Part shown: positions 38,983-61,808 of the stretch, piece after piece | Position numbering within the stretch: the first letter of the stretch is position 1 | How the letters are laid out: each line of letters begins with the position of its first letter | From: Diprion similis | Taxonomy: Eukaryota; Arthropoda; Insecta; Hymenoptera; Diprionidae | Length of the DNA: 64,000 nt | Direction: 5' to 3' | Assembly: GCF_021155765.1 (NCBI RefSeq) | Contig: NC_060111.1 | Span: forward strand, 6,358,481 to 6,422,480 | Program-made: the position numbers and the translations under genes | Notes under the pieces: model-generated | The model's database searches: none | What the model saw: only the letters and a program-made list of their open reading frames with translations | Told to the model about the DNA's origin: nothing

Positions 38983-41666
38983 ATGGATTTATTGCCTAAA
39001 TCCCACGAAGAATTCAGCCAACAAACTTACTGGAATACATTTTTCTCAAAGCGTGGAAAAAAGGCCTTTGAATGGTAAAATGAGATCACTTTTTTTGCTG
39101 TCGAAATAATGCTAACCTGCCATAACCTAACCTATCCTCAGTTGCCCATTTCAATAATTTTTCATTTTAATTTATATTCCATGTGATTTTATAAATTTCA
39201 GGTACGGAGAGTATCCAGAATTATGCGGACATCTCCACAAATACATAAAACCAAAAGATGACGTCTTAGTAGTTGGCTGTGGAAACTCGACTCTGAGCAT
39301 GGATCTGTACGATGTTGGTTATAGGTATGAATTTAGGTGGAAATTGAATAGAGAATATAAAAAGTTTAGCCCACGATAACTTTGCCGAAAACTCTGTACG
39401 TAATTGCAAGTTTTATTGTTTCAGGAATATCACAAACATCGATATATCGCATGTTGTGATCAGGCAAATGATAGATCAGAATAAGACACAGAGACCTATT
39501 ATGCTATTTGAACAAATGGATGCTACAGCGATGAGCTATTCTAACGATAAGTTCAGTGTCGTATTAGATAAAGGGACTCTGGATGCTTTGATGCCCGACG
39601 AAAGCAAGGATGTTATTTCTCGAGTAGATAAGCTGTTTGGGGTAAGAAAAGGAGTGGGAAACGGAAACAGAAGCCGTTCACAGCCAAAACTTTGTCATGT
39701 CATTTTTTTCAGGAAATAACAAGAGTCTTGCGAACTGGAGGGAGATACGTCTGTGTATCATTATTGCAAGAGCACATTCTTAGAAAGTTACTCTCCTATT
39801 TTCCTCAAGCTGATTTTATGTTCAGAGTAGCTCGCTGCTACGAAGCTGAAGCAAAAACCCGTGAAGAAGATGGTAGTGCAATGCCAGTGTTTGTAGTAAT
39901 TGCTACAAAATTTAAGAAGCTACCAGTGCCGGTAAAATTTTTGTTTTTCTAATGGCATAGCAACTTTACACGAGACATAAATATTTTCCTGCCAATTTTA
40001 ATTTGTAATTTGAATAGGTTCTTGAAGTGGGCCTGGTCGAAGGTTCTTTAGAACGTGTTTCTACTACCGATGATATTATTTCAGCCATAAAATCTGCTCA
40101 ACAAATGGCAGTTATTTGCTCGGGACTTCATAAAGGAAATGTTGTGGATGTTGGAGAGGTTTCTTTCGACTTATGCAGACCTGGAGAACAGCATTCGAGA
40201 TATACAATATACATTTTAGATCAGCCCTATGCAAGGGAAAATGAAATATATGCTGCCTTCATAGTTCCACAAGGAAGGTAAACAATTCCAGTAATATTTT
40301 ACATAGTAATGTAAAATGTAATTACCAATTTTGGCTTCGTTCATGGTTAAATAGACATGATTCACAACTTTACATGAAGTTAATTACCGCAACAGAGAAA
40401 CAATGTGGCTTTTTTGCACTAAAGAGGGTCGGCAACAGCTCCTGAAAACTACTAAGAGAAACAGATTAGTAATAGTGACTTTGCGCCGAGAGCATACATA
40501 CGAAAGTTTGGATGCAGTGAAAAAGGAGCTTAGTGTTACTGTTCGCAACTTGGCTCCAGCAGGAGTCAGTAATGATGCTCAAATTCCTTATCTGTCTTTG
40601 GCGTCGAATGTTGGAAAACGAGAAGTTTGCCATGAAGGTGACAGTAAATTCAGTGGACCATATGTTATCGAAGAAATTGAAGATGACAATGGCTCGGTAT
40701 TCAGAAGACTGATATTTCTGAATAATCAATTTGTAATCCAAAGTGAAGCTAAACTAAAAATTGGTAAGGAGTAGAAGTATTTTTCTTCTATGTACGATTT
40801 AATTAGCATTACACTACTTGTGATTATCGTTTATTTTCGTTTGTTTTAAGTCAAATCAAGAAGAGGAAAACCGAAAAAAGTCGTGGATCCCGGATATCTG
40901 GCTTGCGAACATCATATCTACATGAGCGTCGGAGTTTCAATGATCACAAAGAATGCTAATCAAAATGATATTGCTATCATCGGTCTCGGTGGTGGAGGTC
41001 TCTGCACATTTTTGCGACAGTGCCTACCTGAGGTAAACTGATTGACTTTACACCTAGATCGATAGGTGTTCACATTTTCTCGTAACTGTTGATCGAATCA
41101 ATTTCCAACCTGTCTTTCAGATCAACATTACAGCAGTCGAGATAGATGAAGCCATGCTCCAGATAGCAACAAACTATTTTGGCCTGGTACAAGACGCTAA
41201 ATTGAAAGTCGAGATTGCAGATGGTCTAAAATTTATTCTAGACTCGGCAAATCAGGGGAAAAAATTCAGTTCAATTCTTTTTGATGTAGACAGCAAAGAT
41301 ACCACGGTGGGCATGAGTTGCCCACCAAAGCAGTTCATTGAAACATCTATCCTGCAGGCGGTTTCAAAATGCATAGGAGAAACGGGACTTTTCATTTTAA
41401 ATTTAGTGTGTCGAGATCCAGAACTTAAACGCATGGCGTTAAGTTCACTTAAATCCATTTTCAAATCAGTTTATTCTTACAATCTTGAAAGTGATGTGAA
41501 CGAAGTCGTGTTTTGCACAGTTTCGGAGTTAGGCGACAAAGCAGTATGGAAGGAACATATTCAAACTGCCGCTGATAGTCTGAATCGCCAAGTACAGACC
41601 CGAAAATTGCAAAATGAAGATATTGTGGACGTGGCAGATTTGTTGGAACGATTAACGATGCAATGA
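38983..41666 (+). CDS. METTL13: METTL13, eEF1A lysine and N-terminal methyltransferase
   Basis: METTL13 methylates eEF1A at the N terminus and Lys55 through two separate methyltransferase domains. Exons: 38983-39074, 39202-39324, 39425-39641, 39713-39931, 40018-40277, 40396-40763, 40851-41032 and 41121-41666; all phases agree, giving 668 aa (human 699). The start [20 protein letters not shown], with [16 protein letters not shown], is the METTL13 N terminus. The N-terminal Rossmann domain has the SAM loop [12 protein letters not shown] (about residue 50) and [10 protein letters not shown]. The C-terminal spermidine-synthase-like domain has the SAM loop [17 protein letters not shown] (about residue 480), followed by a VEID motif and LFDVDSKD. 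Both loops are intact, so both activities look preserved. Its 3' end converges on gene A. Confidence 0.96.
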
Positions 41667-42351: not shown

Positions 42352-45300
42352 TTATCCTGCGTGAGACGCGGCCATTGTCGTAGTGGCGGTGCTGGCAGCG
42401 GCTATGGCGTCCAAATCTTCCTTGGAAAGATTCGCCGTCAACCAGCGTTCGATGACCGGCAAATTCTCCTCGCTCCACTGCGTCTCTTCCTTGATGTTCT
42501 TCAACGCTTTTTCTATAATAGCATCGGTGGTCTCAACTTCCCCTTGGCGGCTGACGTACAATTCTGACACCATGTCGTAGCCATCCTGAGTGTTGAAAGA
42601 CAACGTCGCGGAATTCACAATTCCGTCCCAAAGGTGCTTTTTATCCTGAAATTTCAACTTTATCTCATCCCAGTTCTCAGAGAGGAAGTTGAACAAGGTT
42701 GTATATCCCGTTGCGCTTCCCGTTAGCATACTGAATATCAGATGTATGTCCGCATCCGTGAAGTCCGAGTTCTTTCCAAGTATCGTTTCCGCGAGCAGCC
42801 TGAAAACGAAAAGACATTGCAAATGTAAAACCGGGCCAGCGCGTGACATAATCGTTAATAAGCTATGCAAACATACTTTTTAATCTTTGATGCATCCTTC
42901 GGGCATCCCGCCAAGGTCTTAAGCAGATAGGTACGCTCGCTCTTGTTCCTTTCCGGGGAGTTCAGAGGGAAGTTTATCACACGTTTTAATCCAAAGTCCC
43001 ACTCGTCGTCAGTTCCCCATTTGAAAACTGGACAGATGAATTCGTGCGCCACTCTAAAAAGAGAGAAGTAAACCTCAATTCATGATCAGCCTGTGACGAA
43101 AATCATTATTATGTTACATGTAATGGTACTGACGGGTTTCCTTTGTCCGGTTCTTCATTCGCCATCCACTTCTTGTACTGCTCCCGCGCTTCCTTGATGC
43201 AAGGTTCGTATCCAGCCTTGCACAAGAAGTTCTTTGTCACTCCTCTCAATTGGGTTTTCCACAGCGGTTCTCCCGGTTGTGGCATTTCTCCGAGTCTTGC
43301 GTAAACAGGCTTCAACAGCGAGCGAATAAATGCCTGAAGAGAAAAATGGTTTTAGAATAAATCGAAGATGTTTGTAAACAAAACGATCCCCACTCTTGGT
43401 CCTTGCATAAATTACCTCAAACTTGAGATGTACGCAGCTATTTTCAATGCGCCTTCCGATGTGATCGATCATCGGGAATACCGGCTCCCAAACGACGTGG
43501 CTTCTTTCTTCCTTCAAGAACAACGTCATGTTCAGAGCTATATCGAAACACAGATCCCCAGCGTATGCGATATTCCAAGCGTCGTGTAAAAGTTTGGCAC
43601 GGGTTAGAACTGGAATTTTCTCTCTCTCTGGGCCCTGCAGAAACTTGGCCAGCATTTCCCAGTTGCGAGAATCGTAGTTGACGGGGAACATACCTAAAAA
43701 TCATCCGGAGTTCACCCATTAGACATATCGCGAAAACAGAAGGTGAAACCGACGAACAAACTTCAAAAGCATTTCATAAATTCTCGTTTACCTATTTCCT
43801 CTGGATTTACAATAACAAAACTATTGTTTGTCGCTACGTCTTTTATGGTCAGACTTCTGTCCGCGTCCTTCATCATCCACACCGTCGGTACAGTTTTACT
43901 GAAGTCAAGATGGGCTTGGGAGACGATTACGATGGGTATGTACCAGGTGTACTTACTCCTCTCAGAAGGCTCTTGAGGTCGGTCTCTCAAGTAAACTTCC
44001 TACGACGCAAACAAAGAGTCAAACTGATGAACGGCGTGGCGAAGAGCAATCGATGAATGCAAGAAGAGATGCAGATGTAATTAGCAAGGGTAATTTACGC
44101 ACGGGGACATCAATCATACTAGCTATAATCGTCAGTATCGATCGTAATCTTTAGAGTGGCTGAAGGGTCCCTTGAAAAGCACGAATCCACTCGTAAGTTT
44201 ACGACGCTAATTGAATTGCATTATCCTTGTAACTACGATTATATAATGCCTGGTTGGGTCAAGGCATCAACGCACAACCAATATTCGTCGATAATCACTA
44301 TTACAAACCTGACTGAAAGTTATATTTCCTGATTCATAATCACGAGTGACCGTGACGAGAGGCAATCTGTCCCGGTTGATCCAGGAGGCAGCAATGTTAT
44401 TTAAAGTCAGATCGGGAATCAGCTTCTGCGACTCATTGGCCACGTCGTTCAAGCAGGTGTAAATATCATCCGTGAAAAAGGTCCTCGACTTTCTGTGTCA
44501 TATTAAACTTGAATGTATTTAATCATCGTCTATTAAACCTTGTTGAAAGATTATAGTCGGGAGTCAATTGATCGAAATTTCATTTACATTCGCTAGAGAC
44601 CTTATGAAGGATTCTCTCGACATCATACGAGGACGATTTATGTCCAAGATGACGCATGTAACGAACTACTATCACCATACTTGATGCTCAAGCTACTCAT
44701 ACCAACACACCAATTAACTTTGAAGGTAAAATTGAGATGCAAGTTGAGTAACACCTTGGCTGATGTTTTTCACACTTCTAAGACAGACTGCGATCAGTGC
44801 CAGTGTTTCAATATGGACGGTTACACACTATTATTTAATGGCTGGAGATAAATTTAAATTATAACCCGCTCGGGTTAAGCTAACAGAAATTTGTGAATGA
44901 GTAATTCCAACAGAACAAAGGCGATTTGACTCCCGACTAAGTAGAGAAGGCATTACTACTCTCGCCACTGATTTTGGATAAATCTCCGAAGACTGCGTTG
45001 CATCAAGTCATTTCCAAGAGTGTAGTTGAACATTCGGAATACCAACGCAGCTGCAATGAAAAAGAAACAATAATTCAGTATCTGCCTAGCAGCGTTGTTT
45101 TAATGCTTGAGGATTGTATTGTGTGTTATGTGCGCGTGCAACGGCATAAGAACAGTCGGTTTCTCTACGCAACTATTTGTCGTCAGCGCGAGCAATAAAA
45201 TTTAAGATAACATAGACCAACATAAACCCACGTCGAGATTTTTATACACGATAAATCTTGATAGCTGCTATTACCTATTTACTCTATTACTTTCTTTTGT

Positions 45301-47231
45301 TTTAATTCAACAAGTAACCTTGTGTCAAATCCAATTAAAAAAAAATAAAAATACATACTTTTGGCAGCAGTGGCGTCTTGTTTGATTCCATTGATTCTGG
45401 AGAACGGGAATCTTTTGCCGAATTCATAGTAAAGAGAATAGAGGGTAGTTGTAGGCCACTTTCCATCCAATTCATCGGGGTATATCTGGAATTGCGTAGT
45501 AATTGATATTCCATTAGTATTCAAGGTGGTAAATCACAATTAAATGTTGAACGTTGTAATTAACGCCTAAATTATTCCAATATTGTACATGCAAGTAGAT
45601 ACCTCGAGAGTAGTCATTGAGGCCAAATACGAGTTCAGGGCTTCATTCACTAGGGAATCACTCCACCAAAACGGCGTTGCAAACTGTCCAATCCATTGAT
45701 AGGTTATTTGGTATGCCGTAGACCAGACTCCAGTGCTGCTTAGTTCACTCTCCCTGTGAAAATGAACGAGATACCGATCAAGTGCATGATCAAAAATTGA
45801 GACAATAAAATTAAAACTCACTTGAAGAACATGAGGCCCCAGCTGTCCGATGGCTGGGACGCTGAATACATTGGAATAGCCATAATGTCGAGCTTAGGAA
45901 CCAGGATTGAAGAGTTGAAGAAGTCTTGTAGATAATTAATGATCTTGACAACTTTGTCTGGGACCGCTTTCAGGGTCTCTAAGTACTCCTTCCGACTCCA
46001 GATCCTGATGTCTAGGCTATTTCCGTTCATTTCATTCACCTTTGTTGTCGGGCTTATACTTTCAAAATCAGAAATCACGAGTGCCAGTTGATACGATGAT
46101 ATTTTAGGCGTCTGTGCAAAGTGATCCCACACAATATCCGGTTCTCCCGACCTTAGAATGAAATGAAATAAAATCAGCAATGTGAGTTTTGAATGGACCA
46201 GCCAGAGATTAAAACAATATTATTATTCAGCCGGATTTATTCCTATCGAATACTTACACGTCTTCGGTCTTTTCTACCGGGGTATTGGAACGAGCCGTGT
46301 AATTTCTTGGCCGAGTCACACTAAGGTTAAAGGTGGCTTTGTAAGCTGGTTCGTCAAAGCACGGAAACATCCTTTGTGCATGGTTTGGTCGTAGATAGGT
46401 AGCCACGAAGAAACTGCAAAGTAATGGTCATTCAATCAAATATTTCAACAGTTTTAAACGGTCACTTTCCTGAATCCAATCTTAGTCTGTTTACTTACTG
46501 CTCTTGGCCACTAGAATCCTTGTACTGATTCCTGAATAATCCTTGAGTAGCATTTGTAGTAATATTTCCTGAGTATGTAATGTCTACCTCATAGAGATCG
46601 TGTACGTCTAGTATTTGTTCGAGGTGAATGATGTACCACGGTCTTTTGGTGTGGCGTTCAGTCCTGGCCACATTGACAGTCAACGTTCCGGATGGCCGTG
46701 TTTCCTTCCTAGAATAAGTTTTGTATCGTTATGAAGAATGTTCAATAATGAGACAACTTCCAACTTCAGTCGTGGATTATAATGCGTGCTACCAACGTTG
46801 GGGAAGAATCCAATTGAGTGACCCTGACATCAGAGTGAGAAATTTGTAGATCCGGATGAACGTTTAATGTGATTCGATCGGTCTTGTCGGTCGGGACGAT
46901 GTGGATCTTTACACGACCCTTGAACTTGCCCTCCTTAATGAAAGGTTGTAGTTCGAGACGGTAGCTCGTCGGCTGAATTTCTTTTGGGAGTCGATATGAG
47001 CCTATCATCGAATAGACTTCATTCAGATCAACGCTACGCTTCTGTCTATCACCCTGAGAGTTCAAATGTTGAAATGAAATACCATTTGAGTAACGTTTAC
47101 AGGAAGTTCAATGTATTATTGTGGTTGTCTAAATTCGAACAATCATCCGGTACCTGTTTTAGGTAAGCTGCGACGGACCCCAAAAATAAGAAGGCAGCTA
47201 TTACCGTAAAAAAAACGGTGGTTCGCCCCAT
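42352..47231 (-). CDS. M1 aminopeptidase-N-like ectoprotein, catalytic motifs lost (gene A)
   Basis: Type II membrane M1-family homologue, 961 aa. Exons in transcript order: 47231-47154, 47053-46793, 46704-46499, 46413-46258, 46151-45822, 45753-45603, 45485-45359, 44686-44601, 44488-44309, 43999-43792, 43693-43416, 43333-43134, 43053-42877 and 42799-42352; all join in phase. The eighth exon was placed by alignment to gene B and the third exon's acceptor is ambiguous by a codon or two. Start MGRTT has a good Kozak context; residues ~4-24 are the signal anchor. The N-terminal M1 domain begins near SYRLPKEIQPTSYRLELQP and keeps MFPCFDEPAYKATF. GAMEN is replaced by QPSDS (333-337), HExxH by YQITY (358-362), and the catalytic Tyr region reads DATAAK. 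The downstream zinc-ligand Glu (N-E381) is kept at the exact spacing, as is WIGQFATPFWW. An ERAP1_C-type C-terminal domain follows. It cannot be a normal zinc peptidase; a binding or scaffold role is inferred. Known insect relatives are midgut ectoenzymes. Confidence 0.9.
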
Positions 47232-48047
47232 GGTAGGTTGTCGTTTATTTTCCTGTAACACAATATCAGACATTGTAACACTCTTTTGATCTTTCTGCTG
47301 TTCTAGGAAGTAGAGTACACAATTTCTTAATGCAGGTATGGTTATTTTAAGGTACACCGTGTTCTAAACGAGTCCTTATCGCACGCTTACAACTTCCAGC
47401 GCGTGTTGAATAGACCATTGCTCTCGGTATAAGATACACAATAATCATTTGCAAATAGCTTATAACGAAGATGCTTATTAGATAAGACGCAGAAAGCGCC
47501 CATCCAAAAGCTAGTTGGAATCAGTTGCACGACAGCCTCGAACCTGTTAGGAATGTTCAGAGGTATAAGTGGAACTTTTATTACTTTATAAACTGGTAGT
47601 GATTTTCTCGCTTCAAAATTTATTAATATTTTCATTTTACCGGGTGGTATGGAGAGCCCTTTAACTCGTATTATCTCTTCAACAGTTTACTTTAGTATCT
47701 GCGGTTACAATAATGACTAAACACAAATCAGAGAAACTGGCATGCAAGCAAGCCCGTCAAGTTATATTGTAAATATTCGAGAAATAACGCTTTGCAGCCT
47801 TCCAAAGTCATTATAACCTGGTTGACACCGTTTGAAGTTGTTTTCATCTTGTTCACAGAATTTCTGATCGTCGGTTTCTTGACGTGGCGTATCGATTTCG
47901 TTTTATTAACGCGTAATCAGGTGAGGACGACCAATTTAATGGTAAATGATCCATTGACCATTCTGATTATAAAGGACCTAACAGTTAAAAACGCTTCCTT
48001 CACCCCAAGTCCGCATTAACCAAGGTATATATCTTTCTACTATTTAG
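47232..48047. promoter_or_regulatory. Divergent upstream region, gene A / adhesion GPCR
   Basis: An ~800 bp interval between two genes transcribed apart. Gene A probably has a 5' UTR intron: TGTTACAG|GAAAAT on the minus strand ends at about 47251, just before its ATG. A GATA-factor word, TTAGATAAG, sits at about 47478-47486; GATA sites are common in midgut-gene promoters. The segment 47798-47925 may be a GPCR exon. Confidence 0.4.
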
Positions 48048-51000
48048 TGCCCTGAGGAACTATCCACCGTCGACAGCATCCAAGGAAATGTTGGTCGAGT
48101 TACTTGGCCGAAGACGTTTTCCCACACGTCGGTTTACTCCGATCCGTTGTGTCTTTCGGAAGATTATCATCTCATGAAGAGAGAGTGCTCAGACACATGG
48201 CTTCCCCGGGTAGCAGCAAACTGCATTTACGTTTCCCCGAGAAAATCGAAACTTTATTGCCCTCCAGGATATGCAGCAATCAGTGGCAAGGAAGATCACG
48301 TTTGCATAATGGTTTCCAGGGAAATGTGGGCCAGCACTTGTAAATTTTCCCCCAAGATGTTTGATGACGTGGGGACGGACTTGCTGATCGCAATTTTCGA
48401 ACACCTCAAAAAACGTGGGTTGCATACAACATGGCTCCCCGTTAAAAGGTTGGACAATTTTGGTCCTCTGCTTTGGATTATCCCGGGTCCACTCTGGAGT
48501 TCGCGTTTTCACATGTCGGAGGCATTTAATGTGACTTATGGAGATAGAAGCAAAGGGTGTCTGGTGCTCGATTTATCGAATGGTTTCAACGTGCGGGCTG
48601 AGAGTTGCGCCGCCACTCATCCCTACCTGTGTATCGTAGAGAAGGATTATTTCGTGCAAGGTGCTTGTCCTCCAAAGTACATTGCCTCGCCAATTCCGGG
48701 GGATAAACGGTGCTTCAATCTGGTGAAGAGCGAGGAAAGAATCGACTGGCGAGGGGCTATGAACAGCTGCAAGACCGCGCAAATCGACAATCCATTTATC
48801 GAACAATTATTTTCTGGAGTGGCAAGGAAACGGGATTTGGAGGAGACGGAGTTTTGCTGGATCGGAGGTGACGGCAGATACACCAGCAACACCGTGGCAA
48901 TGGCTGTGAACGGTGAATCCAGAAATTTGAATACCAGCGTTAAGCTGCGTTGCGTCTTCTGCCAAATTGACACTCCGATTCATCCTGCTCCCAGCATTAG
49001 TTTGAAGTTTTATCAAAACGATAAACAGCTTCACCTTAGTGTTCACGGTGATGAAGGTCTGTGGAAGTTATCATCGTCCGATCCCGGAATTCGATGTTTT
49101 ACCGACGCGAACGGCGACTTAATTCGGAACATTAAAATGAAGAGAATCTCGGACCAGAGATGGACGTCTAAGGACATTGAGCCAGACGTCGACTTCGAGG
49201 ATCGCGTTGACCTCAACGTGGATATCCACAAGACTGTTTATCAATTAAAAATCAGCGATAGGGGTCCTGGCTCTTACATTTGTGATGCTCACACTGTCGG
49301 CGGAGAATTATTGTCCACGAAACCTGTGATTGCTTACGACGATCTAAAGGGAAATGCGTTCGCGCTGGGGGTTGAGGTCATCGGTGCTTGTGAAAGCATA
49401 GAAAAATGCGACCCAACGTTCTACAATATGAATAAAAAACTTGCCACAGACATCGAGGAGACAACGTCTGAACAGTTGGTAGAGGATATCAGATTGATGC
49501 GAATCCTCAACATCACTCCCGACGGTAACGTAAGTGCTTTGTATCACATAACCACGAAATACTTTGACAATGAAAATTTTGCTGCAGAGGTTAGCGCGAA
49601 CGCGTTCATGAGGTCGAAGCGACTGTTCCAGCTACTTGCTGCGATGAATCCACAAATGTATAAGTTCATTTTTTTACGCAACTGCGACGGTTGCTTAAGG
49701 TCGGTCACCGGCAAAGGTAAGAGTCACTTGGTGTGGCCGTATACATACGTCGGGGTTACCACTGTTTCGGAAGAAATTTGCTTGGACTCGAAAGAACTTC
49801 CGGTGCACCGAGTTTGCCAGGGAAGCTACTTGCACGGGGGCACGTGGTCCGAGCCATCCGACGAGTGTGCGAGTGACGTTTCACCGTCAACGAGGAGATT
49901 TTACGAGATAAGCAGGAACGTTCAGGCATACGACCGTGAATCAGGCAATGAAGTTTTGAGGATAGTTGAAAATGTAGAGCAGCTCTCGACCGCCGATATT
50001 TATTTTCTTTCAAAAATAATCGAACACGAGGCTGCGACTCACGTTGCAACGGAAGTGACGCTGGAAGACGTATCCCGCATCTCGATTATATTGGACAAGG
50101 TGATGAAAACAGATTCAACCGTACTCAGACAGTCCGGGATTCTGAATTCCACTAATATTCTTCTGGACTCCCTTGGTAGGCTGCTGGACTTCGCGTCAAC
50201 GACGATCAGTACGGAATATCTAACTGAAGACGACGGGTTGATTAGTATCGTTACGTCGAATCTAATCATCTACATATCAGATCCGAATATCACGAACGTC
50301 ACTGGACTGGCACTGATAAAAAACTCCACGAATTACACCGTGGCGACTAGCTCTTTCTTCGACTTTAACCTCGTGCCTCTGGGTCCTGACCATAGTATTG
50401 AAAATGTCGCTGGACTGGGTGACGTTGAGGTGGCGACCTGGCTACCAAGGAATCTGCTCGACCTGCTCATGAAGCCAAACTATACGAATTTCAACTCGAG
50501 CGTAGGAAATTCTACCGTAAACGATTCTCTCAGGGTTGTAACCACTCTCTTCTACGATGACATAGTGTTCGACAGTGGTTTGATGGGTCAAAATCCCAAC
50601 GAGGTCAGCAGCCGAGTGGTCAGCATGTCGGTGCCTGGATACGGCGCAAATCTTCCGTTTCCGATACCGCTTCTGTTTAAACCATTGAAGGGAACTCCGC
50701 AGCAAACGAAGACCTGCGCTTTCTGGGACTTCGATTATGTCAGCATTTCTACCGTAGCTTCATTCAGCGCATGGTCTGAAGATGGGTGCCAGGACTCCGG
50801 AAGAACACGAGATCTTTCCGGTGAGTTGAACGTCTGTCTTTGTTCTCATTTGACGCACTTTGCGCAGTTAGTTTTGGGCCACTTTCCGGGTCCCGAGGAA
50901 GTTGGGGACCCAGTTTCCATCCAGCACGGACAGGCCCTCGAGGTGATAACGGTCATTGGTTGCATCCTGTCCATGGTCGGTGTATTCGGCATTCTGATAA

Positions 51001-51806
51001 CAGCAACCGTCTTCAAAACTTGGCGGAAGAAGCCTGGCAGCAAAGTCTTGATCCAACTGGCCTTGGCTTTGGGACTGGAGAAGTTTGTGATCGGCATTTT
51101 GCCGATAGTGGATTCCGTGAATTATCCGATTCCCTGCATCGTCACTGGCGCAATTCTTCACTACGCCGTGCTTGCGGAATTTTCGTGGATGCTGGTAACC
51201 GCTTGGCTTCAGTTCAAAAGATACGTCACGGTTCTTGGCGCTAAGCGACCACCAAGATTTTTACTCAAGGCGGCCGGATTCGCCTGGGGAGTTCCTATGA
51301 TAATAGTTTCCATCGTTGCTGGAATCGATCCTTACGCCTACATGCCGGAAACCGATTCCAGGGTGACTTATTGCTACGTATCTGGTATCGCACAATACGT
51401 CGGTCTCCTCGGACCGGTGATTACCGTTATTTCTCTGAACGCATTTCTGTTCGTTCGCGTAATTCACAGCATCCTAGGGGCTCAGAATAAAAGATCCAAC
51501 TTCCATGGCGATAAGACCCTTGTCATCGCGCAACTCAGGCTTGGAATCATGCTGTTCTTTCTACTGGGAATCACCTGGGTATTTGGTCTGGTCGCGAAAA
51601 TGGGGGGTGGCTTGCTATTCAGTTACCTATTTTGCATCACCGCCACCTTACAAGGTTTAGTTTTGTTCACGTTTTTTATTATTTGCGACCCAGCCACGAG
51701 ACAACTATGGTATTCGCTTATTAAACTGAAAGGAAAAACGCCTGGTACAGTCAGCCCAAACTCTTCGCCTAGTAGCGCTGTCAGCGAGTACAGTCAACGT
51801 TATTGA
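48048..51806 (+). CDS. Adhesion GPCR with HRM-like, C-type-lectin-like and Ig-like ectodomain
   Basis: One 3.76 kb exon (1252 codons plus stop) follows acceptor CTACTATTTAG|TGC; the signal-peptide exon upstream is uncertain. The frame is already open and conserved-looking before the TTG at 48147, so that is not the start. Numbering from this exon: Cys-rich HRM-like segment 1-60; a first lectin-like domain ending CAATHPYLC (195); a second (about 207-305, IDWRGAMNSC, FCWIGG); an Ig-like domain (about 312-425, GPGSYICDA); a second HRM-like motif (about 578-607, HGGTWSEPSDEC); the GAIN domain; and a GPS with CAFWDF, CLCSHLTHFA and likely self-cleavage at L935|T936. Seven hydrophobic helices (about 966-1214) and a short Ser-rich tail follow. 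Both GPS tryptophan/cysteine positions look intact, so autoproteolysis is expected. The ligand is unknown. The lectin-like domains lack an obvious EPN/QPD sugar motif. AATAAA at 52005. Confidence 0.9.
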   Translation, partial: CPEELSTVDSIQGNVGRVTWPKTFSHTSVYSDPLCLSEDYHLMKRECSDTWLPRVAANCIYVSPRKSKLYCPPGYAAISGKEDHVCIMVSREMWASTCKFSPKMFDDVGTDLLIAIFEHLKKRGLHTTWLPVKRLDNFGPLLWIIPGPLWSSRFHMSEAFNVTYGDRSKGCLVLDLSNGFNVRAESCAATHPYLCIVEKDYFVQGACPPKYIASPIPGDKRCFNLVKSEERIDWRGAMNSCKTAQIDNPFIEQLFSGVARKRDLEETEFCWIGGDGRYTSNTVAMAVNGESRNLNTSVKLRCVFCQIDTPIHPAPSISLKFYQNDKQLHLSVHGDEGLWKLSSSDPGIRCFTDANGDLIRNIKMKRISDQRWTSKDIEPDVDFEDRVDLNVDIHKTVYQLKISDRGPGSYICDAHTVGGELLSTKPVIAYDDLKGNAFALGVEVIGACESIEKCDPTFYNMNKKLATDIEETTSEQLVEDIRLMRILNITPDGNVSALYHITTKYFDNENFAAEVSANAFMRSKRLFQLLAAMNPQMYKFIFLRNCDGCLRSVTGKGKSHLVWPYTYVGVTTVSEEICLDSKELPVHRVCQGSYLHGGTWSEPSDECASDVSPSTRRFYEISRNVQAYDRESGNEVLRIVENVEQLSTADIYFLSKIIEHEAATHVATEVTLEDVSRISIILDKVMKTDSTVLRQSGILNSTNILLDSLGRLLDFASTTISTEYLTEDDGLISIVTSNLIIYISDPNITNVTGLALIKNSTNYTVATSSFFDFNLVPLGPDHSIENVAGLGDVEVATWLPRNLLDLLMKPNYTNFNSSVGNSTVNDSLRVVTTLFYDDIVFDSGLMGQNPNEVSSRVVSMSVPGYGANLPFPIPLLFKPLKGTPQQTKTCAFWDFDYVSISTVASFSAWSEDGCQDSGRTRDLSGELNVCLCSHLTHFAQLVLGHFPGPEEVGDPVSIQHGQALEVITVIGCILSMVGVFGILITATVFKTWRKKPGSKVLIQLALALGLEKFVIGILPIVDSVNYPIPCIVTGAILHYAVLAEFSWMLVTAWLQFKRYVTVLGAKRPPRFLLKAAGFAWGVPMIIVSIVAGIDPYAYMPETDSRVTYCYVSGIAQYVGLLGPVITVISLNAFLFVRVIHSILGAQNKRSNFHGDKTLVIAQLRLGIMLFFLLGITWVFGLVAKMGGGLLFSYLFCITATLQGLVLFTFFIICDPATRQLWYSLIKLKGKTPGTVSPNSSPSSAVSEYSQRY

Positions 51807-55263: not shown

Positions 55264-58200
55264 ATGGCCCAGATCGCAGGTAGCAGATCAGAGTTCACAA
55301 CGAGCGACCTCGGGCTCAGTGACACGGAGTGTAAACAAAAGGGTGGCTGTTTCTTGTCTTACAAAAAAAGTGCCCTAATAATCCTGATGTTCATCATTGG
55401 TGTTATCACTGCAGGGTTCATAGGAGCCTACTCGAGTCCCTGGGTGAAGAAGCCAGTGAGTTATATCGACGGTTTTGACTTAATTTCTTGCAGCCTGATG
55501 GTGAACTAATTTCGATGATATTTGGCCGGAAACAGCATATCTAAAACGTGATCTTTGTGGCATTGTGCAGACTGTGACAGCTCTGACTTTACCTGAAGAG
55601 GACGACGTTGAAGGAATCAGACCTTCAGCCAGGTTCTCCGTCTCTCCTTTGATCTCGCCAACACTTTACGAAGTGGAACTGATTCCAGTCATGGAACAAG
55701 GAGTGACTAAGTTGAACGGTCATCTGGTCGTGGAATTTGCTTATAACGGAAATCGACCCTTGTCAAAAATCGTTTTGAACGCGAAGGAGATCACGGTACT
55801 CCAAGCGAGACTGTTCTCAACAGATGATCCGTTACCTGCGAATGCACACTTCAGGAGAAGGAGGGACGTTACCGATGAGAATGTTATAAATCCTGAGGCG
55901 AAGAGTACCTCCGAGTCTACGAACCAGGGTTCTGGAATGACGCCAGAAGGTAAGACTTAATTCCCTCAGGTTTATTTTCTGCTTTCTTTTTTCCTAATGA
56001 CGCGAATGCTCTCTTCATGGTTGTCAGACTCGGGCTTGGACGATACTTCCTCCTGGACTTCAGTGAATCTCCCCAGCATTTTGACGGCCGAATCATCGAG
56101 TGAAAAAGTTGTCGACGATGAAACTCCGGACCCTATCTCGATTACATCTCCCGACGTCATCACCACGAGCAACAATACTTATTCTGAAAAAGACAAGGCC
56201 ACATTACCGGCCTCAAGTTCTGAACTGCCCGTAGTCATTCAAAAAATTTCACCACCTTCGATCACCACTCGTCCGATTGTTTCGAGCTCGACGTTCCAGT
56301 CTCCTTCAACCTCTTCTCCGAAGAGGAGCACCGAGATTGGAATCGCCAATGATGAGATGGACGCCGTTGATGGTTTCTATGTAATTTACCCGAATGACCC
56401 TATCCAAAGAGGAATCTATTCCATTGAAATAACGTACGAAGCCAAGGTCGACGGCCAGGCCGTTTTCAATATCACCTACAACCTTGAGGACCAGAATAGG
56501 TGAGTCGATACTCGATCGTCCGATGATCACTCTCCATAAATTTTATCCAACTTTTCCAGATGGCTACTGGCGACCAACTTGAAACAGTTTGGCACTGGTA
56601 CGCTCTTTCCTGGATTCGAAGATCCGAAAGACAAGGCTATATTTTCACTGTCAATAGCGAAGCTTACAAATGTTCACACTCTGACCAATATGCCTCTGGT
56701 ATCATCAAGCGCCATGTGAGTACCGATAAAGCTGGTTGAAATTTTCATAGCAGTGCAATAACTGGTCCCTGCACATTCGTTTCAGTTCCAACGACTTGAT
56801 GATGGACCATTTCCAGACGTCGCCTCCACTCTCTTCGCACAATCTGGCATTTGCTATCACCAATCTGCAACCGATATCAGAACCTACTCTTCAGAACTTA
56901 GAAATACCTCTAACCTTGTGGATCCGAAGCAGAGAAGTTGGTCAGACTCGTTTCATCTTCGAGACGATAGGGCGAGTCGCGCAAAACCTTAGTCACTTCT
57001 TCTCAGTCCCGTATCCACTGCCTAAATTGGACGTCGCTACTCTTCCTGGACTTGATGGTGACGGCATAAGCAGCCCCGGGCTAATTTTCATCAGGTCAAT
57101 ATCATCTCAAGTTTAATATTTGTATCGATGCATGGCATATCCACCTTTTTCAATGATATATATTTTATATTCACGTTATCCCGTGACAGAGAATCGATGC
57201 TGTCACTTGACCAAGAATCTTCTGCAATTACGAAAGAGCTCAAGGTTCAGAATCTGATCAGGTTGATCGGCGAACAATGGCTCGGGGGGCTGGTCAGCAC
57301 CCAGACTCGGATGGACGCTTGGTTCCTCGAAAGCTCATTATTCTACTTACAATACTTATTAGCTGATAAGGCAAGTAGCTATAGAACGGCATTTAGCAGA
57401 CCGGAATATTCTTTATAACAGCTGTTTAATCGACTTTTAGATAGATCCGACCCTCGATTCCTTCAATTCAATCGGCATCCTTCAGCACAGCGCGTTTGAG
57501 GCTGATGCCTACGACGTATCGAGGTCTATGAAGTCCAAGCTCAAGTTTCCAGCCTCTCAAACCACCTACGAAAAGGGTGAGTGACTATTAAAACAATATA
57601 TGAGGGACAGAAATTGATAAGCGATCCTTTGAATCCGGTAGATCATTTGAATTGTCGATGAAATTCGATGTTTTTTATTACAATGAACACACGTTTTTGT
57701 TAAGCATAAATTGTTACTGGTTATAGGTGCATGTCTGATTCGCATGCTGAATTACGTGATATCTGACTCGGGATTTAGGAACGGCTACAAAACGTTCCTG
57801 ACTAGGTGGTGGGTACCCGTTTCACTAACATGTAACGATCAACGTTTTGCTGCACTAGATTTTCACTGTCGCTTCCACAGGGCGAACGCGAATGCTGATG
57901 TATCCGATTTTCTTGCATCTATGTCGAAAGAAGCACAATGGCTTCCGGACGACGTATCCTTCGCCCAGGTTTTTGCTTCCTGGATCGACCAGGGCGGTTT
58001 TCCCGTTGTCACTGTCACCAGGAATTACGAAAGTGCTTCTGCAACCGTGCGGCAGGTAAGTTACTGTTAAATTCGATTACCAAACTCACCGGTAGATAGG
58101 ATATACTGAGTATAACAAAGTTCACGTTCATTTAACGTTGGGTACCGAATATAGATAACTGTATACAGTGGGAGATAATGGATGAAACTGCTGTCGCTTA

Positions 58201-61200
58201 TCTACAATCAAAGGGATCTATTACGGTTTTTTAAATGAAAGACTTATACGACATCTTGACTACTGATCATCGTTCAATTATATCATTGTTCGAAATGTAT
58301 GCCAAAGTTCTGTAACTTTTTGGATTCTGCGGACTATTTCTCCGGCCGGAAATGGTCAATCAAAATGGTCAGAATCCGACTTGCGAAGTATAAGTTTCCG
58401 AGAATTTACGTTGTGGACGATGAAGCATTAACCTCAACGCATATTATAGGTAAATTGAATAATAGCAGAAATGATGGCAACGGTGCAGCAGTTGACGAAA
58501 ACAACGGATGGTTCAAGAAGTACCAAGAAGGGGATATTGCGCCGGACGCAATATGTTACACTAATTAACTCATAAGACTCGAACAGTAGTTACAATTACT
58601 TGAGACCTGGCGATTGTTCGTTGCGTACAAAAAGGGGGCCCAGCCGTTGGATCCTCCGTTAAATTAATACTAACTAACTCATCGGTTGATTGAAGAAAAA
58701 CCATGTTCAATTCACTGTCAGCTGAAGAAGCATGCATTACTAACGATTATTTTCTTTTAAACTTGCTAATCGAAATTATACACATGGTCATTATTCATAC
58801 CAGGAACAATTTGCTTTCGATAACGAAACAATAACGAATCGCAAGTTGTGGCACGTTCCTGTTTCTTACATCGTCGACGGAGATGACTGGTCGTCGCCGT
58901 CAAGAACGTGGCTGAGCCAGGAGGAGACAACTTTGATGGGGCTCGGAAATAACGAGGAAAAAAGGTGGCTTTTGCTGAACGTTAATCAAACTGGTGAGTG
59001 GAATCATTCGTGCCAAAGAATATGCACCATATTGAGGCCTAAGAGTCAGAGATCGGCAAAATCCAAAATTTTGAGTATTCATTTTTTGTTTTTTAAAAAG
59101 TATTAAATAAAATCAATTGAGATGTGAATTTTTTTAGAGTAAATTATTTATTCAAATCATTGTTACTGATTATTCAAATACTTAAAAATTAAAACAATAT
59201 TAGTATCAATTATCTGAATATTGAATAATTAAAGATAGAAAAGTTACTAATTATTTGAATACTCAATAGTCAATATTAAATATTTTTAATTGGTGTTCAG
59301 TAATTGATAGCCAATATATTATTAATTTGTGCAATATTTGATAATTTATGATAGAATGTTACTAATTAGAAAGATGTTCAATAATCATCAGCCAATACAT
59401 TACTAATGTATACACACAACAATATACTATAATTACTAGCTTGGCTACTATTTACTTGGCTATCAATTACTGAATACCGAATCAATTAAAAGTGATTAAT
59501 ATTGACTATTGAATATTCAAATAATTAGTGACTTTTCATTTTTAATTATTCAATATTTAGATAATTGGTGGTACTATTGTTTTAATTCTTAAATATTTAA
59601 ATAATTAGTAACAATGATTCGTACAAATAATTTATTAAAAAAAAAAAAACATTACATTCCAATTGATTTTATTTAATGCTTTTTAAAAAAACAAAAAATA
59701 AATACTCAAAATTTTGGATTTTGCCGATCTTTGCTAAGACTTGCTTGTTACGCTGATTATAATAAACCGATAAATTCTTTGGGCTCCGGCACCTCTGATC
59801 TTGATCACCTCGACAAAGCTGGAGAAAATTAGAGTAGAAAGTACCAACGTGTATAGTTTATTTTCTAAAATTGGTTTGGGTAATTACAACAAAGCTCAAT
59901 ATCTTCCGCAACTAAATATATTCTACTTTATGAATTGAAAATAGGATTTTCACCATGAGTAATGTATTTTTCAAAGGATATTACCGGGTTAATTACGACT
60001 TGGATAATTGGAGCCTGTTGGCGTCGGCTCTTGACTCAAAATTCGATATATTTCCGGTGACAACGAGAACTTCGTTAGTCGACGATGCTCTTAGCTTGGC
60101 TTGGGCCGGCCGCTTGGCCTACCCTACAGCTTTGAACTTAATTCAGTTTCTTCACAAACGGGAGACACACCATTCGCCATGGACGGTCGCCTTTCAGAAT
60201 ATGGAAAAGCTCAACTATCTGCTGCAGAACACTGTTGCATATTCCAGCTTTCAGGTAATCAAGCTGCTTGGATTGTCCGTTCGTTGAATTTTAGTGCCCG
60301 GTTAGTATGTTGCTGTACAAATTGACGCAAATTAGCACAACGTATGTATCGCATTCCACGTGAAATAATTGTTTAACGTTTAATTCATAATACGTAATTA
60401 CTCAAGAACATGAAGTTGCAGTTATGAAAAATATGATAGTAGAAGCTGATTTTGAGATTTAATTAGATTTGGACATTGACTGGGTTAAAGAAAATTATGT
60501 TTTTCTGCGTTCAGGAGTTCATGGTGAAGTTCATATCACCTCTCTTCAACACCGTAACAGCATCCAATACCGAAACGCAGCTCAAATTGATCACCGTAAA
60601 ATGGGCTTGTCTGGTCGATAATCCAAAGTGTCAGAGCTACATGAAAAATCTGTAAGAATATATATATTGTCCCATAGATTCTCTCACTTTAAAATTTTAC
60701 AGAGGTTGAATCTGAAGAAATGAAAATGATGAAAAATATTAACGAAATTTTCTGTATGGTTGTTATGATATATTCTTGAATAATTTTTTTTTATTTTACT
60801 GATTATCGCAATCCAAAGTTCCAGCGTGCCTAATTACCTCGAAAAAACTCACCACTGCACTCTAGCGAGATTTGGTGGAAAGCAGGAATGGGACTTTCTA
60901 ATCTCGAAAATCTCTGCCGCTTCGAACAAAGAAACAAAGTTGAAACTTTTATCAGCCTTGCCGTGCTTTCAGGTGGAATGGATCCTTCAGATGTAAGTAT
61001 GCGGTTAACTCAATATGATGAAAATAATCGTGACGCGTTATCGGGTGAGACAAAAACGTGTCACGTAAATATCAAGTGAACAATAAAACCATAATCAAAT
61101 TTATTTTCACTCTTTTTCCAAACAAGACTTTTGAACGACATAATGACTGAAGGGAAAATGGACGAACACGAAACTCTCGAATTACTTCGCAGCTTTCGTC

Positions 61201-61808
61201 AAAATCCAATCGCTGCTCGATCGGCATTCAAGTTTTTCCGAATACAATGGAATGAGATTTTCAAAAGGTTTGTTGTGTCCTTCATGTATAAATATAAATT
61301 ATTGATTTAATGCTTAATTACTTTTAATTACTAACTATGCGATTGTTTTGCACAAGTTTGGAAGACCATCGTCTGGTTCTTTTAAACTACATAATAAAAT
61401 AGTAAGAAAAGAAATTTGAAACTATTGTAAAATTCTGTAAGATCAATTTTTTTGGACGTAAAATTTACCAACAACATTCTTTTCAGGTTTTCGAAATCGT
61501 ATTCGATCCTAAAAGCCTTCGTCGAAGCATCTGTTAGTGGTATTACGGACGAACAAGATCTCAAAGATGTGAGTAAGAGGTTTCATTCTGAAAAACGGAA
61601 CACAGACTAGAATAGAATAAGCACATAAATAATATACCGATGTTTGCAGTTTCAGATTTTCAAAGAGAAACACTTTGACAGTTTGAAGTTTTTGGGACAC
61701 ACCATACGAGTTGCTGAGACCGAAGCGAGGTCAAGGATTTCATGGCTCAAGAAGAATCTAATCACGGTTCAAAGGTGGCTGGACGTTTATATCAGACCAA
61801 CGATATAG
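55264..61808 (+). CDS. Divergent M1 aminopeptidase-like ectoprotein, catalytic motifs lost (gene B)
   Basis: Second M1-family type II membrane protein, 1075 aa from this ATG. Exons: 55264-55455, 55571-55949, 56028-56499, 56560-56715, 56786-57094, 57190-57370, 57441-57576, 57727-57805, 57881-58055, 58804-58993, 59977-60254, 60515-60651, 60825-60992, 61127-61267, 61487-61568 and 61656-61808; all phases close. The cytoplasmic start MAQIAGSRSEF is followed by a membrane anchor (LIILMFIIGVITAGFIGAY). The M1 N-terminal domain is interrupted by a Ser/Thr/Pro-rich insert of about 130 residues and preceded by an RRRR site (159-162). FPCFDEP has become FPGFEDP, GAMEN is DGISS (492-496) and HExxH is RLIGE (527-531). 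Glu550 keeps the exact HExxH-x18-E spacing, and TTYEKGACLIRML keeps the catalytic-Tyr position (Y606). The GYYRVNYD block and ERAP1_C-type tail are intact. One intron uses a GC donor (after 57370). The reading frame is maintained despite loss of catalysis; function unknown. AATAAA at 62399. Confidence 0.87.
59048..59733. mobile_element. Long inverted-repeat MITE in gene B intron 10
   Basis: Arms of about 330 bp start AGATCGGCAAAATCCAAAAT on the left and end with the reverse complement on the right, pairing almost to the centre near 59390. The arms are AT-rich and carry subrepeats of GTTACTAATTATTTGAATA. No coding capacity. The element begins only 55 bp after the donor at 58993 and enlarges an intron whose neighbours are mostly 60-300 bp. 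Confidence 0.85.

Follow-up and report, generated by a model that had tools for sequence, protein, structure and literature searches.

Research on insect aminopeptidases N (APNs) has dealt with them both as digestive enzymes and as receptors of toxins. The passages available from one source describe lepidopteran APNs as bearing a signal peptide and a GPI anchor and report one, AgAPN10 of Anticarsia gemmatalis, that is without the entire GAMENWG and HEXXHX18E motifs (PMC11554492). Elsewhere among the metallopeptidases, the accessible portion of a second source describes Tma108, a yeast M1 pseudopeptidase that keeps HExxHx18E and binds nascent chains via its substrate pocket, as well as Gone early of Drosophila, from family M13 (neprilysin), a type II membrane protein whose metallopeptidase ectodomain is dead (PMC11266112). 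The FlyBase pseudoenzyme group, as excerpted, lists 180 pseudopeptidase genes, all families together (PMC12869072), and among the matches listed from open-licence PMC literature (titles and opening lines) none dealt with inactive M1 genes of Hymenoptera.

Here we describe gene B, an M1 gene from a 64,000-nt stretch of the Diprion similis genome (C7:6358481-6422480, the whole stretch analysed and hereafter the window), compared with its paralogues in a genome of 269 Mb in 60 contigs. Gene B shares with insect APNs the Pfam domains Peptidase_M1_N, Peptidase_M1 and ERAP1_C, intron positions and phases, and the APN group of the tree, but lacks HExxH and GAMEN and carries a 142-aa Ser/Thr/Pro-rich insert. 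Where lepidopteran APNs have a signal peptide and GPI anchor, it has a predicted N-terminal anchor and no hydrophobic C-terminus. It resembles AgAPN10, compared by the paper's description only, in being an APN paralogue without both motifs, that is, a pseudo-APN. Tma108 and gene B are both M1 proteins for which binding is the supposed mode of action, but gene B no longer has either motif and carries a predicted membrane anchor; with Gone early, of another family, it would share type II topology and a dead ectodomain. Its neighbour, gene A, is likewise a dead M1 gene, with other substitutions and no such insert. To judge from the excerpted description of AgAPN10, an insect APN without both motifs is already in print, so the kind is known and gene B adds a new member with an unusual loop.

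Gene model and catalytic motifs

The hand-built gene B model (Table 1) leaves all 1079 codons open, with no stop or frameshift and with consistent intron phases throughout. All 13 comparable introns (of 15) match insect-APN paralogues in position and phase, each being shared with at least one of the genome's 11 APN-lineage paralogues that carry HExxH, which, together with its place in the tree, puts gene B in the insect APN clade. One of the 15 introns, intron 6, has a GC donor, and introns 5 and 8 have weak donors yet lie at positions common to paralogues. For exon 2, an acceptor ending at 55493 follows a better pyrimidine tract, but paired with the donor at 55455 it would give an intron of only 38 nt, which is too short, and by eye a stop is met in all three frames downstream; we adopted the acceptor ending at 55570, and the idea of a frameshift at the start of exon 2 was dropped since all frames beyond 55493 hit a stop. 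A profile-driven model had treated the insert as intron and had exon 14 interrupted by a frameshift, both of which we judged alignment artefacts; that run gave gene A one stop and gene B one frameshift, and the hand-built models used for both genes have none.

Table 1. Features of gene B and related M1 genes (window positions, except where a contig is named).
Feature	Position	Strand	Remarks
Gene A, second predicted dead M1 gene	42352..47273	-	YQITY for HExxH; 14 exons, 978 aa, hand-built
Gene B	55264..61808	+	16 exons, 1079 aa, hand-built splice model
Gene B exons 1-8	55264-55455, 55571-55949, 56028-56499, 56560-56715, 56786-57094, 57190-57370, 57441-57576, 57727-57805	+	
Gene B exons 9-16	57881-58055, 58804-58993, 59977-60254, 60515-60651, 60819-60992, 61127-61267, 61487-61568, 61650-61808	+	
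Predicted N-terminal membrane anchor	55363..55434	+	aa ~34-57, preceded by ~33-aa tail; Kyte-Doolittle
RRRR, possible furin-type site opening insert	55853..55864	+	aa 159-162; chance of minimal furin motif not low
142-aa insert in domain I	55865..56368	+	aa 163-304, Ser/Thr/Pro-rich core aa 191-292; spans 78-nt intron 2
FPGFEDP, replacing FPCFDEP	56606..56626	+	alignment to solved APN chains
DGISS, replacing exopeptidase motif GAMEN	57060..57074	+	alignment to solved APN chains
RLIGE, replacing HExxH	57260..57274	+	RLIGE aligns with HELAH of solved APN chains
Glu550, third zinc-ligand position	57329..57331	+	exact HExxH-x18-E spacing
Intron 6, GC-AG splice sites (AAG/GCAAGT)	57371..57440	+	position and phase common to A, b, c, g1-g4, g6
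Tyr606, catalytic-Tyr motif (TTYEKG)	57567..57569	+	6-8 residues closer to Glu than in 14 active paralogue models
17 M1/ERAP1_C genes	nine clustered on C1 (17.09-17.17 Mb); b, c, d on C1; t10 on C10; t12 on C12; t3 on C3; A, B on C7		
t3, third predicted dead M1 gene	C3:1941945-1946728		YGITH for HExxH, VES for MEN, catalytic Tyr also lost; open model of 872 aa

By descent gene B belongs to the M1 family, its three Pfam domains occurring in order and all above cut-offs (Peptidase_M1_N 55.9, Peptidase_M1 87.5, ERAP1_C 206.3 bits) and its best solved relatives being aminopeptidase N chains (best E 1.2e-72). The Kyte-Doolittle 19-residue maximum is 2.62 at aa 37, the next beyond aa 1-80 being 1.36, and the hydropathy profile contains no hydrophobic C-terminus; gene B is thus predicted to encode a type II membrane protein with a dead M1 ectodomain. 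Across the window as a whole, CpG observed/expected was 1.27, a value that along with the APN gene family points to an insect, perhaps of the Hymenoptera, and there were no Rfam matches at gathering thresholds. Viral contigs matched none of six peptide patterns, and a scan for bacterial-type promoters upstream of gene B is uninformative for a eukaryotic gene.

With RLIGE in place of HExxH, both zinc histidines and the general-base Glu are gone, and gene B departs from the active M1 pattern both at HExxH-x18-E (RLIGE-x18-E) and at GAMEN (DGISS). The earlier note had read these replacements, together with FPGFEDP, as a loss of M1 catalysis in an intact coding gene, with substitutions other than those of gene A, and the sequence supports this reading: the coordinates that it gave for RLIGE and DGISS are exact, all three peptides align to the motifs claimed, and gene A has YQITY where gene B has RLIGE. 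Its further statement that Glu550 and Tyr606 stay at family spacing holds for Glu550, which lies 19 residues past the last residue of RLIGE and so at exact x18, but not for Tyr606, whose motif is right but which follows Glu550 by 56 residues vs 62-64 in 14/14 active paralogue models. As the two zinc histidines are absent, and with them the general base as well as GAMEN, zinc binding as in APN, catalysis and the usual capture of the peptide N-terminus are probably lost, and use of the pocket in the manner of Tma108, as outlined in the source excerpt, is for that reason unlikely. An activity that used another metal site or mechanism, built on Glu531, Glu550 and Tyr606, would account for the retention of the latter two residues, but it has to contend with the loss of both histidines, the general-base Glu and GAMEN as well as with the altered Glu-Tyr distance, and we consider it extremely unlikely.

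The Ser/Thr/Pro-rich insert in domain I

Composition sets the insert apart from the rest of the protein and from the rest of the family, with Ser, Thr and Pro making up 49% of its core (aa 191-292) vs 20% of the gene B protein outside the insert, and with the highest 100-aa window among 16 other M1 models (some partial, most beginning at domain I) reaching 35%. Paralogues have, by eye, ~20-35 aa at the same position within domain I. The insert is more likely exon than intron, because its GC is 0.49 and its exon-3 part was open in frame in only 229/5000 order-1 Markov copies. It has no tandem repeat structure, and its composition suggests O-glycosylation.

The earlier note had presented the insert as a stalk or linker preceded by RRRR. 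The insert is real and RRRR stands directly before its first residue, aa 163, but a membrane stalk of the mucin type, a Ser/Thr/Pro region between anchor and folded ectodomain, does not describe it, since the insert lies inside domain I, after the first strands. RRRR itself arose in 4/2000 shuffles of the gene B protein, and the minimal furin motif R-x-[KR]-R in 292/2000, the latter occurring also in 2 of the 16 other M1 models (A and c). A cut at this candidate site would nick domain I and would not simply shed the ectodomain, because the first part of domain I would stay on the anchor and folding would hold the remainder. For a juxtamembrane furin-type site, the better-placed candidate appears to be RQKR of gene A (aa 43-46), which lies between the predicted anchor and domain I.

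Gene A, t3 and the number of losses

A genome search with ERAP1_C returned at least 43 matching stretches, falling in 17 genes (Table 1), of which 15 were modelled with a custom spliced aligner and A and B by hand. The first paralogue models were poor or broken near the exon before HExxH, and so were rebuilt with a profile and the tree repeated; the models start at domain I, lack the 3' end in g1, g3, g5, g7, b and c, and include one profile model with a frameshift (t12, whose row kept an X), while t2 on C2, of another M1 branch, was excluded from alignments and trees. HExxH-x18-E is present in 14/17 models and absent in A, B and t3. The nine APN genes at C1:17094508-17168644 lie on one strand, and 9/9 models carry HExxH-x18-E, with motif variants in g3 (SEA for NEG) and g7 (TAMEN for GAMEN). 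Gene B is 20-27% identical to the other 16 models, and the starred APN group of the trees holds it both without A (first models) and with A (refined models), t10, t12 and d/t3 falling outside. The loss in t3 is clearly separate from any in A or B, because t3 pairs with the active gene d at 100/100 (45.7% identity).

Whether A and B lost catalysis once or twice is a closer question. Gene A also has Ala at the catalytic Tyr position; A and B are 23.1% identical over 815 aligned positions, have 11 introns in common, and have their 5' ends 8 kb apart. The phylogeny that the earlier note had proposed, of gene A and active APNs, joins A and B at 92/93 with refined models (80/85 with the first) and proves neither one loss nor two, the join being one of two long branches meeting. 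When either A or B was left out (first models), the position of the other next to b, c and the C1 cluster was unresolved. The AU tests left standing the pairings of B with b (p 0.179 with first models, 0.0585 with refined), of B with c (0.251 and 0.257, in the same order) and of A with b (0.181, refined), and gave p 0.0537 for A with c (first models). At columns conserved in at least 10/14 active paralogues and changed in both members of a pair, the same new residue was found in 17/79 cases for A-B, 9/53 for A-t3 and 13/67 for B-t3, and new residues absent from all 14 active models numbered 11, 5 and 5, respectively; shared new residues thus lean slightly to A+B. All 11 introns shared by A and B occur in other APN paralogues too.

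A single loss therefore has only the best tree and linkage in its favour, because the AU alternatives stand, the shared residues are near the controls and the introns are common. We take a single ancestral loss in a tandem A/B pair as the simplest reading and independent loss as possible; the differing substitutions, from which independent losses had been claimed, do not establish them, as such differences are expected after one ancestral loss too. The related claim that B is more diverged than A agrees with branch length in the refined tree (2.66 vs 2.09) but not with the Peptidase_M1 Pfam score, which is lower in A (36.3) than in B (87.5 bits).

Between the two genes, at 48048-51806 (+), lies an uninterrupted 1252-aa frame with GPS and 7tm_2 domains, adhesion-GPCR-like and perhaps a retrocopy, its neighbours A and B having 14 and 16 exons. 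A frame at 41058-41666 (+) with a Spermine_synth match (29.3 bits) lies tail to tail with gene A.

Maintenance of gene B and its proposed role

Gene B does not look like a decayed pseudogene, because its GC3 (0.531) is far above its intron GC (0.317) and because its comparable introns all sit at APN positions and phases. The same contrast was seen in 13 paralogue models measured (GC3 0.393-0.591, intron GC 0.284-0.364), each with GC3 above that of its own introns. Simulated neutral decay of two paralogues to 45% identity produced at least 12 stops in 40/40 runs (means 24.8 and 25.4), whereas gene B, at 20-27% identity to the other models, has none. From these patterns we infer purifying selection on gene B.

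Erosion is considerable all the same: of 111 near-invariant columns (those where at least 13/14 active paralogues are identical) gene B keeps 57, compared with 62 in A and 82 in t3. By domain, with borders set from general M1 architecture, B keeps 14/36 in I, 20/46 in II, 14/14 in III and 9/15 in IV, so that retention is lower in II than in III+IV (Fisher p 0.004), as it is in A and t3 (p 0.017 and 0.036); domain III matches the consensus at 28/48 columns. Erosion is not confined to the catalytic domain, domain I being as eroded as domain II and these two having changed most, and scores are below those of active b and c for Peptidase_M1_N (55.9 vs 153 and 154), Peptidase_M1 (87.5 vs 289 and 239) and ERAP1_C (206 vs 331 and 285 bits). 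The long branch, the columns lost and the mobile-element-like inverted repeat within intron 10 would suit a gene whose function is gone and which is decaying into a pseudogene, but a 16-exon model free of stops and frameshifts, the coding GC3 contrast and the complete retention of near-invariant columns in domain III make such drift quite improbable. The repeat itself (59047-59733) is a 687-bp AT-rich element with outer 53-nt arms 94% complementary; it has 91 matching stretches genome-wide (including itself, palindromic copies counted per strand), many on C7 and mostly 70-89% identical, forming a MITE-like family.

We therefore return to a maintained gene, and consider it rather probable that its product is a pseudo-aminopeptidase of the insect APN lineage, a type II membrane protein working non-enzymatically at the cell surface, its most likely role being that of a membrane-anchored binding or partner protein. 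Deprived of zinc and of peptide N-terminus capture, the protein would act non-enzymatically at that surface; its outer domains would bind a ligand, a matrix component or a partner protein, perhaps an active APN (any naming of the partner being a guess), and the Ser/Thr-rich loop of domain I would probably be a glycosylated spacer or shield. A more specific proposal, in which the C-terminal half of B pairs with an active APN whose folding, sorting or activity B then controls, draws on the retained ERAP1_C domain (206 bits), on the 11 APN-lineage paralogues with HExxH available in the same genome, and on the dimerisation of mammalian APN through domain IV; in domain IV B keeps only 9/15 near-invariant columns, and we regard regulatory pairing as unlikely. 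Further out, A and B might descend from a single ancient tandem pair of pseudo-aminopeptidases at the cell surface, retained for binding by the C-terminal half, with B, having gained a glycosylated and furin-nicked loop in domain I, serving as a two-chain, processing-controlled binding partner, a scheme that we put forward as highly speculative; we know of no other M1 protein of such sort. A surface decoy that binds toxins or microbes normally using active APNs as receptors would fit the description, in the available passages, of insect APNs as binding proteins and putative Bt toxin receptors (PMC11554492), but no sequence feature points that way and we hold it to be very doubtful. For the preferred role as a binding or partner protein, the broader precedent is CD13: a membrane APN can act without catalysis, since by the excerpted account its catalytically dead mutants (H388A, H392A or E411A) still orient epithelial polarity (PMC8338993).

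Annotation by family name would label gene B an aminopeptidase, which would be wrong if the non-catalytic reading is true. More broadly, 3/17 modelled M1/ERAP1_C genes have lost the zinc motif but kept their frames open, with at least two separate routes to that state, and such repeated loss suggests that the APN ectodomain is useful without catalysis, with named genes now available for testing which domain carries the non-catalytic role.
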